A program made the translations under genes and the position numbers. From NCBI GenBank assembly GCA_021555075.1, contig JAKGBX010000003.1:124001-188000 (forward strand): DNA of 64,000 nucleotides. Reading direction: 5' to 3'. Of the stretch, positions 116 through 49,244 are shown piece after piece (within the stretch, counting starts at the first letter, position 1; the number at the start of each line of letters is the position of its first letter). Source of the stretch: Rhodobacteraceae bacterium LMO-JJ12. GTDB taxonomy: Bacteria; Pseudomonadota; Alphaproteobacteria; Rhodobacterales; Rhodobacteraceae. The notes under the pieces are model-generated. The model saw nothing but the letters and a program-made list of their open reading frames with translations. It was not told where the DNA came from and made no database searches.

Positions 116-937
116 TCAGCGTGTGAGGGTTTCGGTCGAGGCGAAGAACATTGCCTGGCTGACGGCCGAGACAACTTGTTCGGGCTCGTAAGGTTTGGCG
201 ATCAGGAAGGCCGGTTCGGGGCGTTCGCCGGTGAGTAGGCGCTCGGGGAAAGCGGTGATGAAGATCACCGGGATATCACCGAGATCGGGCAGCAGATCGT
301 TGATTGCGTCGATACCGCTGGAATTATCGGCCAGTTGGATGTCAGCGAGGATCAGATCGGGGCGGTCATTGAGACCCATCTCGACCGCCGCGGCGCGGGT
401 GCGCGCGATGCCGGTAACGTGATGCCCCATGATCGAGACGATGCCTTCGAGGTCCATCGCGATGATCGCTTCGTCTTCGATGATCATCACCCGGCCCTGC
501 ACCGCTTTCTGCATCTCTTCGCGGGCGATCTCGATCAACTCCTGGGCCTCGCTGGTGTCGATGCGCATGATGTCGGCAATGGATTCGACCGCGAAGCTTT
601 CGACGGTGTTGAGCAGCAATGCCTCGCGGGTGTTGGGGGTGAGGCTGGAGAGATGCGAGTGCGCGCGGGCGTGCAAAACATCACCATCGCTATCGCCGGC
701 GGGTTGGCCCGAGCTGATCCAGAGATCATGGAACACCCGAAAGAGCGCGGCCCGCGAACCAGATTTGGAAGCGTCAAAGGCGCTGGGATCTGTCAGGATA
801 GCTTCTAGAGTGGCCGCTGCGTAACGGTCGCCGCTGTCTTGAGCGCCGGTCAGGGCACGCGCGTAGCGGCGCAGATAGGGCAGCTCGGGTGCAATCAGAT
901 CGGAGAGAGACAGGGAAGGGCGTGAGGGTTTGGTCAC
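116..937 (-). CDS. phyR: PhyR, general stress response anti-anti-sigma regulator
   Basis: This is a 273-residue protein with an N-terminal sigma-factor-like domain (about residues 1-140) and a C-terminal receiver domain. The receiver shows the acidic pocket (IIEDEAIIAMD) and the phospho-acceptor Asp at about residue 199 (LADIQL). In the known system, phosphorylated PhyR mimics a sigma factor, binds NepR and so releases sigma-EcfG. The reading frame extends upstream to 1042, but I chose the GTG at 937. It has GGAG a few bases upstream, the protein then begins at the usual family position, and the extension would run through the promoter palindrome. It is divergent from nepR. Confidence 0.93.
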   Translation of the reverse strand: MTKPSRPSLSLSDLIAPELPYLRRYARALTGAQDSGDRYAAATLEAILTDPSAFDASKSGSRAALFRVFHDLWISSGQPAGDSDGDVLHARAHSHLSSLTPNTREALLLNTVESFAVESIADIMRIDTSEAQELIEIAREEMQKAVQGRVMIIEDEAIIAMDLEGIVSIMGHHVTGIARTRAAAVEMGLNDRPDLILADIQLADNSSGIDAINDLLPDLGDIPVIFITAFPERLLTGERPEPAFLIAKPYEPEQVVSAVSQAMFFASTETLTR

Positions 938-956
938 TTTTTTCTCCAGTTTTGAG

Positions 957-1006
957 ATATTCTTTGGAACAAACGCAGGGGGTATCGCGTTTGTTCCAAA
1001 GAATAT
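957..1006. promoter_or_regulatory. Palindromic divergent sigma-EcfG promoter pair
   Basis: The phyR-nepR intergenic region holds a perfect inverted repeat with 20-bp arms (957-976 and 987-1006) and a 10-nt centre. Each strand carries the EcfG consensus. On the plus strand it is GGAAC at 966-970, 17 nt, then CGTT at 988-991. On the minus strand it is GGAAC opposite 993-997, 17 nt, then CGTT opposite 972-975. The two promoters therefore overlap almost completely and face opposite ways, toward phyR and toward nepR-ecfG. Positive autoregulation of this locus by EcfG is established in alphaproteobacteria. Confidence 0.9.
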
Positions 1007-1071
1007 GTATTTTTTCCGCCCAATGACAGGCAGGATGGCCATGCCATATCGACACGAGCAAGAGGTGAACT

Positions 1072-1278
1072 GTGCCTAATCGACCGAATAAAGCAAAGAT
1101 AAACGCGCAGATTGATGAGAACCTGCGGCGGGTGTTCGAGGAAGATGCGGCCTCGGAGCTGCCGCCGCAGCTGTTGCAGTTGCTCAATAAACTTGACGAA
1201 ATCGAGGTGCCGATAGCGAATGCGCCACCCGATCACGGTATGGGCGATGACGGGGCCGATGAAGGGGCCGACAAATGA
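1072..1278 (+). CDS. nepR: NepR family anti-sigma factor
   Basis: A 68-residue acidic protein with the NepR core (INAQIDENLRRVFEE) followed by the conserved leucine-rich helix (ELPPQLLQLLNKLDE). It sequesters sigma-EcfG and is itself captured by phosphorylated PhyR. The start is the GTG at 1072; the ATG at 1041 is out of frame. Its end overlaps the ecfG start by 4 nt (ATGA), implying coupled translation of anti-sigma and sigma. It is expressed from the palindromic EcfG promoter just upstream. Confidence 0.92.
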   Translation: MPNRPNKAKINAQIDENLRRVFEEDAASELPPQLLQLLNKLDEIEVPIANAPPDHGMGDDGADEGADK

Positions 1279-1832
1279 AACGGCGCGATGCCAAGGCTGA
1301 GTTGGTCAGCCACATGAAGGCACTGCGCGCGTTTGCGATGAGCCTGTCGCGCAATGATGCGCAGGCGGATGATCTTGTGCAGGACACTGTGCTGAAGGCG
1401 TGGACGAACTTTGACAAGTTTCAGGAAGGCACCAACATGCGTGCCTGGCTGTTCACCATTCTGCGCAATACCTTTTATTCGCAGCGCCGCAAGGCCGCCC
1501 GCGAGGTCGAGGACAGCGATGGCGCCATGGTTGAGAGGCTGTCGGTGAAGCCAGACCATGACGGGCGGTTGCAGATGGCTGATTTTCGCACCGCTCTTGA
1601 TACCCTGCCAGCCGAACAGCGCGAGGTTCTGATTCTGGTGGGGGCGTTGCAATACTCCTATGAGGAGGCGGCGGAGGTTTGCGGCGTGAAGGTTGGCACG
1701 GTCAAGAGCCGTCTCAACCGGGGGCGTGAAGCGTTGAGCATGGCGATGGGTCTGAACGACGATGAGACGCTGGAGATGACCGATGCGGGCACGCGGGCGG
1801 TTGTCGGGACGTCGAGGACGCCTGCGGCATGA
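1275..1832 (+). CDS. ecfG: EcfG family RNA polymerase sigma factor
   Basis: A 185-residue ECF sigma factor. The sigma-2 region includes DLVQDTVLKAWTNFDKF and the WLFTILRNTFYSQRRK stretch. The sigma-4 helix-turn-helix includes LPAEQREVLILV, YEEAAEVCGVKVGTVKSRL and NRGREAL. It is the general stress response sigma factor, held by NepR and released by PhyR. It overlaps nepR and the downstream kinase gene by 4 nt each, so nepR-ecfG-kinase reads as one translationally coupled operon. Promoters matching its consensus occur at three places in this window. Confidence 0.93.
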   Translation: MKRRDAKAELVSHMKALRAFAMSLSRNDAQADDLVQDTVLKAWTNFDKFQEGTNMRAWLFTILRNTFYSQRRKAAREVEDSDGAMVERLSVKPDHDGRLQMADFRTALDTLPAEQREVLILVGALQYSYEEAAEVCGVKVGTVKSRLNRGREALSMAMGLNDDETLEMTDAGTRAVVGTSRTPAA

Positions 1833-46550: not shown

Positions 46551-46748
46551 TTGTTCCCCCTAGATGTGGTAGGGTAAAAGTCTTCCGCCGATTCTGCCAG
46601 TGGGTGTGACTTCACAGTTGCCCGGGAACTGCACCGTTGAGCGAGATTCGGGATGGCCCTTTGTTTAGGTGTTGCCCGTGCCTGTCGCTCTCAGTATGCG
46701 TCGGATGCCTTGAGTCCGCCTTGCAACCTACCGACCGGATGACATGAT

Positions 46749-49244
46749 ATGAGCCGTTTTGCCGCCCCCATCGCCGAACAGATCTGGGATATGAAATATC
46801 GCCTGAAAGAAGCCGACGGCACGCCGGTCGATCTTTCGGTTGAGGACAGCTGGCGGCGGATTGCGCGGGCATTGGCCAAACCCGAGGCCGACGCGGATGC
46901 CTGGGAAGAGCGGTTTTACAGCGCGTTGGAAGATTTCAAATTCCTGCCTGCCGGGCGGATCACGGCGGGGGCGGGCACGGCGCGCAAGGTGACGCTGTTC
47001 AACTGCTTCGTTATGGGCACCATACCCGACAGTATGGGCGGAATTTTCGAAGGTCTGAAAGAGGCCGCACTGACCATGCAGCAGGGCGGCGGCATCGGTT
47101 ATGACTTTTCCACCATCCGGCCAAGGGGTGCGGATGTGTTGGGGGTTTCGGCGGATGCAAGCGGCCCGCTCAGCTTTATGGATGTGTGGGACGCGATGTG
47201 CCGCACGATCATGAGCGCAGGGTCGCGCCGCGGTGCGATGATGGCGACGATGCGCTGTGATCACCCCGACATCGAGGATTTTATCAGCGCAAAACGCGAT
47301 TCCGCGCGGCTCCGCATGTTCAATATGTCGGTGCTGATCACCGATGATTTTATGGACGCGGTAAAAGCGGGCGGCACGTGGGAATTGAAATTCGGCGACA
47401 AGATTTATCATACTGTCGAGGCGCGTGATCTGTGGAACTTGATCATGCAGGCGACCTATGATTATGCCGAGCCGGGGGTGATTTTCATCGACCGGATCAA
47501 CCAGATGAACAACCTTAACTACTGTGAGGAGATTGCCGCGACCAACCCGTGTGGTGAGCAACCATTGCCGCCTTATGGAGCTTGTTTGCTTGGCTCGATC
47601 AATATGGCGCGTCTGGTAAAGGCACCGTTTGAGAAAGGCGCAGAGATTGATGTGCGCGCCTTGGACGAGCTGGTCGCAACCGCCGTGCGGATGATGGATA
47701 ACACCGTGGATGCCAGCGGCTTTCCTTTGGAGGCACAGGCACGTGAGGCGCAGGCCAAGCGGCGGATCGGGTTGGGTGTGACCGGTCTGGCGGATGCGCT
47801 TTTGATGGTGGGTTTGCGCTATGGTAGCGACGAGGCGGCGGCGCAGACGGAAGTTTGGCTGAAGGCGATTGCGCGGGCGGCCTATCTGGCGTCAGTCGGG
47901 CTAGCGCGCGAAAAGGGCGCGTTTCCGCTGTTTGATGCGGAAAAATACCTTGAGAGCGGATCGCTTACCCATATGGACGCCGACGTGCGAGATGCGATTG
48001 CCGAGCATGGCATTCGTAACGCGTTGTTGACGTCGATTGCGCCGACGGGGACGATCTCGCTTTATGCCGGGAATGTCTCATCCGGGATCGAGCCGGTGTT
48101 TGCCTATGCCTATACCCGCAAGGTTTTGCAAAAAGATGGCTCGCGCACCGAGGAAGAAGTGGTGGATTATGCCGTCGCGCTGTGGCGTGAGAAGTTTGGC
48201 GACGCACCCTTGCCCGAGCATTTTGTCGATGCCCAGACGCTGGCACCGCAAGACCATGTGAAGATGCAGGCGGCAGCGCAGAAATGGGTGGATTCAAGCA
48301 TTTCCAAGACGATCAACGTGCCCGAAGATATCTCGTTTGATGCGTTCAAGGACGTCTACATGCAGGCGTGGGATACCGGCTGCAAAGGCTGCACGACCTA
48401 TCGCCCAAATGATGTGACGGGGAGTGTTTTGAGTGTTGGGGGGGAGAAGCCTGTCGATATCGCAGCAAGATTAAAAGATCTTATGGCATCGAACAATCTT
48501 AAGGCAGCGACGTTGTCAAAAAAGGCTGGTCTAAATGCACGCGCCGTAACTGATATTATTGATGGGAGAAGTCAGAGTCCGCGAACAGATACTGTAGTCG
48601 CTCTCGCAAAAGCTCTGGACGTTGATGTGAGCGCATTGATTGGTAAGCATCGGGAGTTGGCCCCCGAACTCATTTCCAACACCGACGCCGAACCGCTGAC
48701 CCCGCATGGCGATGTGGTCTATATGACCGAACCGCTGGACCGGCCGCAATCGCTGGAAGGCTCGACCTATAAAGTGAAATGGCCCGACAGCGAACATGCG
48801 CTTTATATCACCATCAACGATATCATCATCAACGGCCATCGCCGCCCGTTCGAGGTGTTCATCAACTCCAAAAACATGGAGCATTTTGCCTGGACCGTGG
48901 CACTGACCCGGATGATTTCGGCGGTGTTTCGGCGCGGTGGCGATGTCTCGTTTGTGGTTGAGGAGTTGAAAGCCGTGTTCGACCCGCGCGGCGGGGCGTG
49001 GGTGCAGGGGAAATACATCCCTTCGATTTTGGCGGCGATTGGCGGCGTGATCGAGCGCCATATGATCGCCATTGGCTTTATCGAAGGCGAGGGGATGGGC
49101 TTGAAATCCGACCCCCAAGCGCAAGTGGTGAACCTTGACGAACGCCCCAAGGGGCCAGCCTGTCCGAATTGCGGGCAATATGATTTGCGCATGGTGGAAG
49201 GCTGCATGACCTGCGGAAGCTGTGGGCATTCGAAATGTTCTTAG
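46749..49244 (+). CDS. nrdJ: Adenosylcobalamin-dependent ribonucleotide reductase with XRE-domain insertion
   Basis: An 831-residue class II reductase that makes deoxyribonucleotides without oxygen dependence. The catalytic barrel has the substrate Cys segment (TLFNCFVMG), NPCGEQPLPPYGACLLGS near residue 268, and IAPTGTISLYAGNVSSGIEPVF. The C-terminal TSCPD-type domain ends in the redox cysteine tail (CPNCGQYD, GCMTCGSCGHSKCS). Between them, at about residues 570-635, lies a Cro/C1-type helix-turn-helix (ARLKDLMASNNLKAATLSKK, GLNARAVTDIIDG, VVALAKALDVDVSALIG). This segment (about 48460-48655) uses TTA, AGA, CTA and ATT codons rare in the flanks. The frame is unbroken. Confidence 0.92.
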   Translation: MSRFAAPIAEQIWDMKYRLKEADGTPVDLSVEDSWRRIARALAKPEADADAWEERFYSALEDFKFLPAGRITAGAGTARKVTLFNCFVMGTIPDSMGGIFEGLKEAALTMQQGGGIGYDFSTIRPRGADVLGVSADASGPLSFMDVWDAMCRTIMSAGSRRGAMMATMRCDHPDIEDFISAKRDSARLRMFNMSVLITDDFMDAVKAGGTWELKFGDKIYHTVEARDLWNLIMQATYDYAEPGVIFIDRINQMNNLNYCEEIAATNPCGEQPLPPYGACLLGSINMARLVKAPFEKGAEIDVRALDELVATAVRMMDNTVDASGFPLEAQAREAQAKRRIGLGVTGLADALLMVGLRYGSDEAAAQTEVWLKAIARAAYLASVGLAREKGAFPLFDAEKYLESGSLTHMDADVRDAIAEHGIRNALLTSIAPTGTISLYAGNVSSGIEPVFAYAYTRKVLQKDGSRTEEEVVDYAVALWREKFGDAPLPEHFVDAQTLAPQDHVKMQAAAQKWVDSSISKTINVPEDISFDAFKDVYMQAWDTGCKGCTTYRPNDVTGSVLSVGGEKPVDIAARLKDLMASNNLKAATLSKKAGLNARAVTDIIDGRSQSPRTDTVVALAKALDVDVSALIGKHRELAPELISNTDAEPLTPHGDVVYMTEPLDRPQSLEGSTYKVKWPDSEHALYITINDIIINGHRRPFEVFINSKNMEHFAWTVALTRMISAVFRRGGDVSFVVEELKAVFDPRGGAWVQGKYIPSILAAIGGVIERHMIAIGFIEGEGMGLKSDPQAQVVNLDERPKGPACPNCGQYDLRMVEGCMTCGSCGHSKCS

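Follow-up and report, generated by a model that had tools for sequence, protein, structure and literature searches.

PutA, NadR, and BirA are trigger enzymes, i.e., enzymes that carry a DNA-binding domain, which in NadR is of the XRE kind. In type I restriction, the specificity of HsdS changes by swapping of its target-recognition domains. Ribonucleotide reductases (RNRs) can contain inteins, which occupy conserved catalytic motifs and are removed by splicing. Class II RNRs also possess known extra folded domains after the catalytic barrel, i.e., the IscU-like domain and the zinc-finger C-terminal domain, which are widespread in this class (PMC9669993, PMC5704485). Among the matches listed from the open-access literature, no report of a helix-turn-helix (HTH) in an RNR was found. 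The terms helix-turn-helix, HTH, and DNA-binding are all absent from the available part of the text of a 2022 analysis of RNR insertions (PMC9669993), and helix-turn-helix is likewise absent from that of PMC5704485.

The locus analyzed here lies in a stretch of 64,000 nucleotides from Rhodobacteraceae bacterium LMO-JJ12, referred to below as the window. Its nrdJ gene (46749..49244, + strand, as for all parts of the gene given below) is an intact open reading frame of 831 aa, in frame and position as the original prediction had read it, and encodes an adenosylcobalamin-dependent (class II) ribonucleotide reductase with an inserted HTH. The protein scores 583 bits with the NrdJ profile TIGR02504 (NrdJ_Z; cut-off 400) and thus belongs to class II NrdJ. 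The catalytic barrel comprises residues 85-551 (47001..48401; PF02867), and the C-terminal part contains both elements that characterize the class, i.e., a TSCPD domain at residues 674-772 (48768..49064; PF12637) and a Cys-rich ribbon (49161..49241) seen in the alignment of NrdJ, the six cysteines of which (C805, C808, C819, C822, C825, and C830) are invariant in 23 of 23 aligned NrdJ. This TSCPD domain probably corresponds to what Burnim et al. 2022 (PMC9669993) call the "IscU-like" domain, an equation made in the present analysis. The genome of this organism encodes a second class II RNR besides nrdJ.

Between the barrel and the TSCPD domain, the linker carries an XRE/Cro-C1 HTH module with the core LSKKAGLNARAVTDI at residues 571-632 (48459..48644), an assignment that draws on Pfam, AlphaFold2, Foldseek, low GC3, and polyphyly. 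The original prediction had placed an XRE-type HTH with foreign codon use at this point, and both parts of that claim are borne out, as is its expectation that structure prediction would fold the linker region as an HTH. Pfam recognizes HTH_26 at residues 574-628 (28.4 bits, cut-off 22), HTH_31 at 571-627 (27.1 bits, cut-off 27), and HTH_3 at 575-628 (23.5 bits, cut-off 23). In the AlphaFold2 model of full-length NrdJ, helices span residues 571-581, 586-592, 599-604, 613-622, and 627-631, with a pLDDT of 76-87 for the block, while the stretches on either side are predicted to be disordered (pLDDT <50); the mean pLDDT of 55.9 is too poor for the arrangement of the domains, and the HTH block alone was used. 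When the linker region was modelled alone, the same five helices were obtained. A Foldseek search with this region model ranked DNA-binding regulator domains on top, with the CapH N-terminal domain, P22 c2 on its operator, C.AhdI, DdrO, SinR, and 434 Cro all high in the order (best E-value 6e-4), and chains of HppE and HEPD were also among the matches. By its predicted five-helix fold and its profile matches, the insert is an XRE (Cro/C1) HTH domain. Its GC content is 0.48 and its GC3 is 0.40, compared with a GC of 0.58 in the flanks and a GC3 of 0.67 in the barrel and 0.73 in the C-terminal part. An intein was considered and rejected: what is inserted in the linker is a stretch of about 62 aa with an XRE fold, and a Pfam search of the whole protein gave no intein domain.

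A set of 275 loci, from which 5 without an NrdJ ORF at the threshold used and 7 without an anchor (L143, L118, L271, L208, L228, L265, and L142) were left out, gave 263 loci and 236 distinct NrdJ. A linker insert is present in 57 of the 236, a ratio that is enriched because some loci were fetched via HTH similarity or chosen for long frames, and the other 179 have a short linker. The linker lengths are bimodal, i.e., at least 98 aa or at most 57 aa, with none of the 236 NrdJ in between; empty linkers are thus short, as originally assumed. The frame is intact in all 57 counted NrdJ; L118 and L265, which carry HTH sequence in a broken frame, are outside the 57. At the level of genomes, an HTH at the NrdJ linker site was found in at least 43 of the 349 genomes of the family in which NrdJ was matched (hand-counted as 29 + 3 + 10 genomes plus G048, with G319 excluded as outside the 349), which is a lower bound because only part of the 349 linkers was read. 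The insertion in the window stands, but it is not a private oddity, and several HTH subfamilies occupy the same site. Cultured strains with an HTH-containing NrdJ include Roseovarius nubinhibens ISM and Pseudooceanicola batsensis HTCC2597. Outside the family, no HTH-containing NrdJ was recognized in 289 genomes of the class, at least three of which, besides the window's own, belong to the family; the query carried the window-type HTH, so that other HTH types could escape this search.

The HTH_3 profile matches 52 of the 57 inserts (E<=0.01), and the phage families phrog_8 (transcriptional regulator) and phrog_4 (transcriptional repressor) match 54 and 52 of them, respectively. Rescanned singly, all 14 unusual inserts gave an HTH profile, mostly a good one, the weakest being L266 (E 0.07) and L063 (E 0.05), and four inserts of type T7 hit phrog_2328, a family of phage repressors, with E 7e-8 or better. 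However, the profile matches are generic and include antitoxin, RM-control, and defense-regulator profiles as well. Profile scans recognized no kind of domain other than the HTH in the 57 inserts, with a few of the HTH matches weak. At the cut-off used, the inserts fall into 15 clusters, 8 of which are singletons.

The presence of the HTH turns over fast among the NrdJ. On a FastTree tree of NrdJ built with the linker removed, presence and absence require 42 changes, 19 of them forced, i.e., across starred (well-supported) branches, compared with a mean of 51 for shuffled labels; the number of changes does not distinguish gain from loss. The domain is not found in all close relatives, a point on which the insertion proposed in the original prediction depended: the starred sister of the window NrdJ, from the same-genus L117, has an empty linker and is 90% identical without the linker. 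Other pairs that differ in HTH presence are L015, with a T5 HTH, and the empty Ruegeria pomeroyi L112 (97.8% identity across the final 420 residues of the barrel plus the C-terminal part), L036 and L067 (97.5%), and Puniceibacterium confluentis L042 and P. sediminis L061 (93.9%). For 27 of the 57 HTH-containing NrdJ, the nearest NrdJ is an empty allele. The HTH types cluster somewhat, since the nearest HTH-containing relative is of the same type in 14 of 57 cases, against a shuffled mean of 6.4, with 21 of 2000 shuffles reaching 14.

The flanks of the insert differ between occupied and empty linkers. The left flank of the window insert (DVTGSVLSVGGEKPVD, 48411..48458) resembles that of other HTH-containing alleles and carries the synonymous codon signature GGG, AGT, TTG, AGT. 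In HTH-containing versus empty alleles, GGG occurs in 38/57 versus 47/165, TTG in 32/57 versus 31/165, and AGT in 27/57 versus 17/165. The right flank (..APELISNTDAEPLTPHGDVVYMTE, 48645..48731) is of the HTH-associated haplotype according to a comparison of PHGD/E, which is present in 47/57 HTH-containing and 29/164 empty alleles (Fisher p 2e-18, uncorrected for kinship of the rows). The left signature of the empty PHGD alleles is intermediate, and these alleles may be scars left by a deletion. Overall, the pattern looks like recombination in conserved flanks that brings in different cores. A hairpin of RNA or DNA pairing both flanks, prompted by the fold of 48405-48740 (z -1.0), was rejected: when the duplex energy was compared with synonymous-codon randomization, the mean z was +0.55, with 1 of 57 at p<0.05.

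The composition and the phylogeny of the inserts both bear on their origin. The mean GC3 is 0.61 in the insert and 0.83 in the barrel, and 55 of 57 inserts lie below their own barrel. The foreign character belongs mainly to the core, since its GC3 is 0.60, compared with 0.79 and 0.75 in its own flanks and with 0.73 in empty linkers (0.79 in their barrels). On an HTH tree of 37 standalone XREs and 58 NrdJ HTHs (L189 has two HTHs in tandem), the NrdJ label needs 12 changes, 7 of them forced; this tree has 85 columns and an unsettled bootstrap, with standalone kin sought with some of the types and two standalone rows removed. The NrdJ HTHs form a single clade in 0 of 200 bootstrap trees, and such a clade is rejected with a p-AU of 0.0005 (quick tree, four long-branch rows removed). 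The starred clade that holds T2, the type of the window, comprises 10 NrdJ HTHs and 24 standalone XREs, and the starred clade of T5 comprises 9 and 4, respectively. For 28 of 58, standalone kin are nearer than all NrdJ HTHs outside their own type. Against a reading by capture, however, 55 of 58 have a closer neighbor in another NrdJ HTH, mostly one of the same type, than in any sampled standalone XRE. As judged from these trees, the NrdJ HTHs are polyphyletic, with more than one origin. Among the 25 listed same-type HTH pairs, dN/dS is 0.13-0.31 in 15 and the other 10 are saturated in dS, and in most same-type pairs dS is >1 or saturated. Stronger conservation of the recognition helix was considered as a sign of DNA reading and set aside, since the value of 0.62 is not clearly higher than the 0.55-0.58 found elsewhere in the domain (93 pairs).

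Some of these HTHs have kin among phage repressors. A viral contig of 39 kb, L329, encodes a repressor that is 55% identical to the window HTH and shares its 15-residue core without a difference. As read from the sequence, this repressor adjoins a divergent small gene, and an SSB-like gene lies 2 kb away. In 50,697 phage records it has one homologue, in the Rhodobacter phage RcapNL (two accessions; 36% over 81%, E 4e-4), which is annotated as a phage repressor or CI-like repressor. Prophages and GTAs are described in the family in the available part of PMC8224337. One T10 insert has hits in nine phage records (34-40%), of which seven are named CI or S24 repressor, and T10 and T8 inserts match eight viral contigs at 39-46%. 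The window HTH itself gave no tblastn match at E<=1e-3 in the 50,697 phage or in 72,556 plasmid records, one T5 HTH gave none in the phage records, and a T5 and a T7 query matched no viral contig. Among the close standalone kin, many are regulators encoded by the host, either S24-like or small, so the kinship with phage repressors is shown for some HTH types only. Compared with a phage CI-like repressor, the window protein possesses the homologous DNA-binding domain (55%, with the 15-mer identical to L329) and lacks both the C-terminal part of the repressor and the context of an immunity region. Since the HTH alone is present, inside NrdJ, it is a captured domain and not a repressor.

The inserts occupy the same site, give an HTH-type profile in those examined, fall into 15 clusters, and have a foreign GC3. 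We tentatively favor, at somewhat less than an even chance, the explanation that the NrdJ linker in Rhodobacteraceae is a slot that has captured XRE-type DNA-binding domains from repressors on repeated occasions, with exchange between lineages in which the linker flanks are shared. The site looks like such a slot because related bacteria have no domain, or a different one, at the same spot. On grounds of selection and fold, the inserted domain probably still reads DNA, with two copies brought together by a dimeric NrdJ, a dimer being what we take the enzyme to be from its family. DNA reading is likely since XRE folds alone have been captured, are intact under purifying selection, and show a diversity like that of repressors, whereas the loss of the repressor's own dimerization part could abolish operator binding. 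The trait under selection may be the binding of operators that belong to temperate phages or to mobile elements of another kind, which we put forward with reserve and as slightly less probable than its opposite; the turnover and diversity would favor such changing operators over a fixed promoter. The host would then keep the DNA-reading half of a repressor, without the regulatory half, on a housekeeping enzyme, resulting in a non-inducible immunity repressor, and changing phages would lead to a diversity of specificities and a patchy presence. For the window HTH, an inherited specificity close to TGTGA-N4-TCACA is predicted. It is doubtful whether the reductase goes as far as to confer anti-phage immunity as a permanent, non-inducible superinfection-immunity repressor, its slot being refilled as phages change and the nrdJ linkers forming a fossil record of phage encounters.

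Alternatively, NrdJ may be an autoregulator, i.e., a trigger enzyme like PutA or NadR, which binds its own promoter and represses nrdJ when the enzyme is in excess; we regard this as rather improbable. A candidate operator, TGTGACTTCACA (46605..46616, no strand assigned), lies 132 bp before the nrdJ ATG and is suggestive as the sole TGTGA-N(0-8)-TCACA in the 64-kb window. The source of its half-site was the pair of immunity regions in L329 and L302, which share TGTGATTTTTCACA and whose repressors are 62% identical. The probability that such a palindrome falls by chance in the intergenic region of 198 bp is about 0.0014 as estimated from window shuffles and 0.0011 as estimated from its 25 places in the 4.35-Mb genome, figures that flatter the candidate because the site had already been noticed in an alignment when the spacer range of 0-8 was set. 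Both TGTGA and TCACA are absent from the 230 bp upstream of the gene in the HTH-less sister L117. However, the spacer is 2 in this palindrome and 4 in phage-type operators, and G082 (L009), with the identical recognition helix NARAVTDI, has a half-site only upstream. Upstream inverted repeats are not stronger in HTH-containing genes (34 versus 139 empty, p=0.44), and L119 and L112, which differ in the HTH, have upstream DNA that is 92% identical, with only a weak repeat with 6-bp arms private to L119. A diversity of specificities would also be superfluous to an autoregulator. With the mismatched spacer, the half-site in G082 (L009), and no excess of repeats, autoregulation is thus possible for the window and not supported generally.

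The main rival, which we consider unlikely, is that the module is tolerated or structural, i.e., that the linker is a permissive site where the XRE fold, inert toward DNA, provides the swinging C-terminal arm with a small stable spacer or an aid to dimerization. The predicted disorder around the insert and the intactness of NrdJ without it are consistent with this rival, the second class II RNR of the genome could relax constraint, and something similar may hold for the HppE/HEPD-type enzymes with an XRE fold, which appear among the Foldseek matches. It would be odd, however, for a mere spacer to be captured from many XRE subfamilies, and the recognition of XRE-type domains only in the 57 inserts (with a few of the HTH matches weak), the purifying selection, and the first place of DNA-binding regulator domains in Foldseek argue against it. 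A single ancient HTH of the family ancestor, with very fast divergence and many losses, would account for the same site, the shared flanks, the PHGD haplotype, and the 55 of 58 HTHs that are nearest to another NrdJ HTH, and the count of changes does not separate losses from gains. This explanation is already disfavored and is highly improbable, since the single clade is rejected (p-AU 0.0005), the starred T2 and T5 clades mix NrdJ and standalone HTHs, 28 of 58 have standalone kin nearer than other-type NrdJ HTHs, GC3 is not ameliorated in 55 of 57, and near-identical alleles differ in presence. That the reductase is tethered in a general way to DNA or to sites of replication for local dNTP supply, independent of operators, is an idea raised in the original prediction as recruitment to DNA; it is compatible with the DNA-binding fold placed by Foldseek but leaves the turnover of many repressor-type specificities unexplained, and is very unlikely.

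If the linker is a slot for repressor-derived domains, as we favor, it differs from the usual view of domain capture as rare in a family, with repeated capture and fast turnover at one site of a central enzyme, and the empty alleles of close relatives provide built-in controls. If the domains bind DNA, an enzyme that makes nucleotides doubles as a regulator with exchangeable specificity, and if the targets are phage operators, this would be an unrecognized defense strategy, with the linkers recording past phage encounters.

Compared with known systems, NrdJ resembles PutA, NadR, and BirA as a metabolic enzyme with a fused DNA-binding domain. However, the domain of these enzymes is terminal and a stable family feature, whereas that of NrdJ is internal, patchy, of more than one origin, and exchangeable. 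The CI-like repressor of RcapNL and the immunity regions of L329 and L302 share the HTH subfamily of the window, with the 15-residue core identical in L329. The repressors of L329 (106 aa) and RcapNL (212 aa) are small proteins encoded beside their operator, whereas NrdJ keeps the DNA-reading part alone, inside an enzyme. Like the inteins of RNRs, the HTH is a recurrent in-frame insertion in RNR genes, but inteins sit at catalytic motifs, whereas the HTH sits in the linker without an intein domain. The IscU-like and zinc-finger domains are likewise extra folded domains of class II RNRs, but are widespread in the class. Finally, HsdS and NrdJ both have conserved flanks around an exchangeable DNA-specificity module, whereas HsdS is a dedicated DNA-binding subunit and NrdJ is a central metabolic enzyme.

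The G-ending codons are abundant in the left flank of the linker HTH domain of the window NrdJ, and C-ending codons in the right flank (48400-48740), a bias that also appears in many further NrdJ alleles carrying a linker HTH. A hairpin between the left and right flanks was tested and rejected.

Among the T7-type inserts (L033, L034, L063, L261, L264, and L189b), several pairs show higher conservation of helices 4-5 than of helices 2-3, which include the recognition helix, e.g., 0.94 vs. 0.59 for L033/L261. The lower conservation of helices 2-3 could reflect diversifying specificity. The 202 aa linker of the L189 allele (791-1396, minus strand) carries two HTH domains in tandem, which differ in type, i.e., T5-like and T7-like. 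In two further HTH-bearing nrdJ genes (L118 and L265), the reading frame is broken within or downstream of the insert, through either sequencing error or decay.

Two long NrdJ frames, G008:C2:1069-3885 (1179 aa) and G409:C101:745-3528 (1163 aa), have their alignment interrupted near residue about 268, at the TNPCGEQ motif, by about 370 additional residues, which are probably inteins. The window's own genome (G000) encodes a second class II-like RNR on contig C1 at about 1794134-1796392 (L002-L005), a 1242 aa open frame that is longer than the window NrdJ and 31-44% identical to it in pieces. This second enzyme could relax the constraint on the window NrdJ.

Upstream of nrdJ, CCCCTAGATGTGGTAG (window about 46556-46573) has a matching counterpart, CCCCTATATGTGGTAG, in L117, a same-genus HTH-less relative, and in L037, and resembles an NrdR box. 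The only occurrence of the pattern TGTGA-N(0-8)-TCACA within the window, TGTGACTTCACA (46605-46616), also lies upstream of nrdJ; this candidate operator appears similar to half-sites in operators of related prophages.
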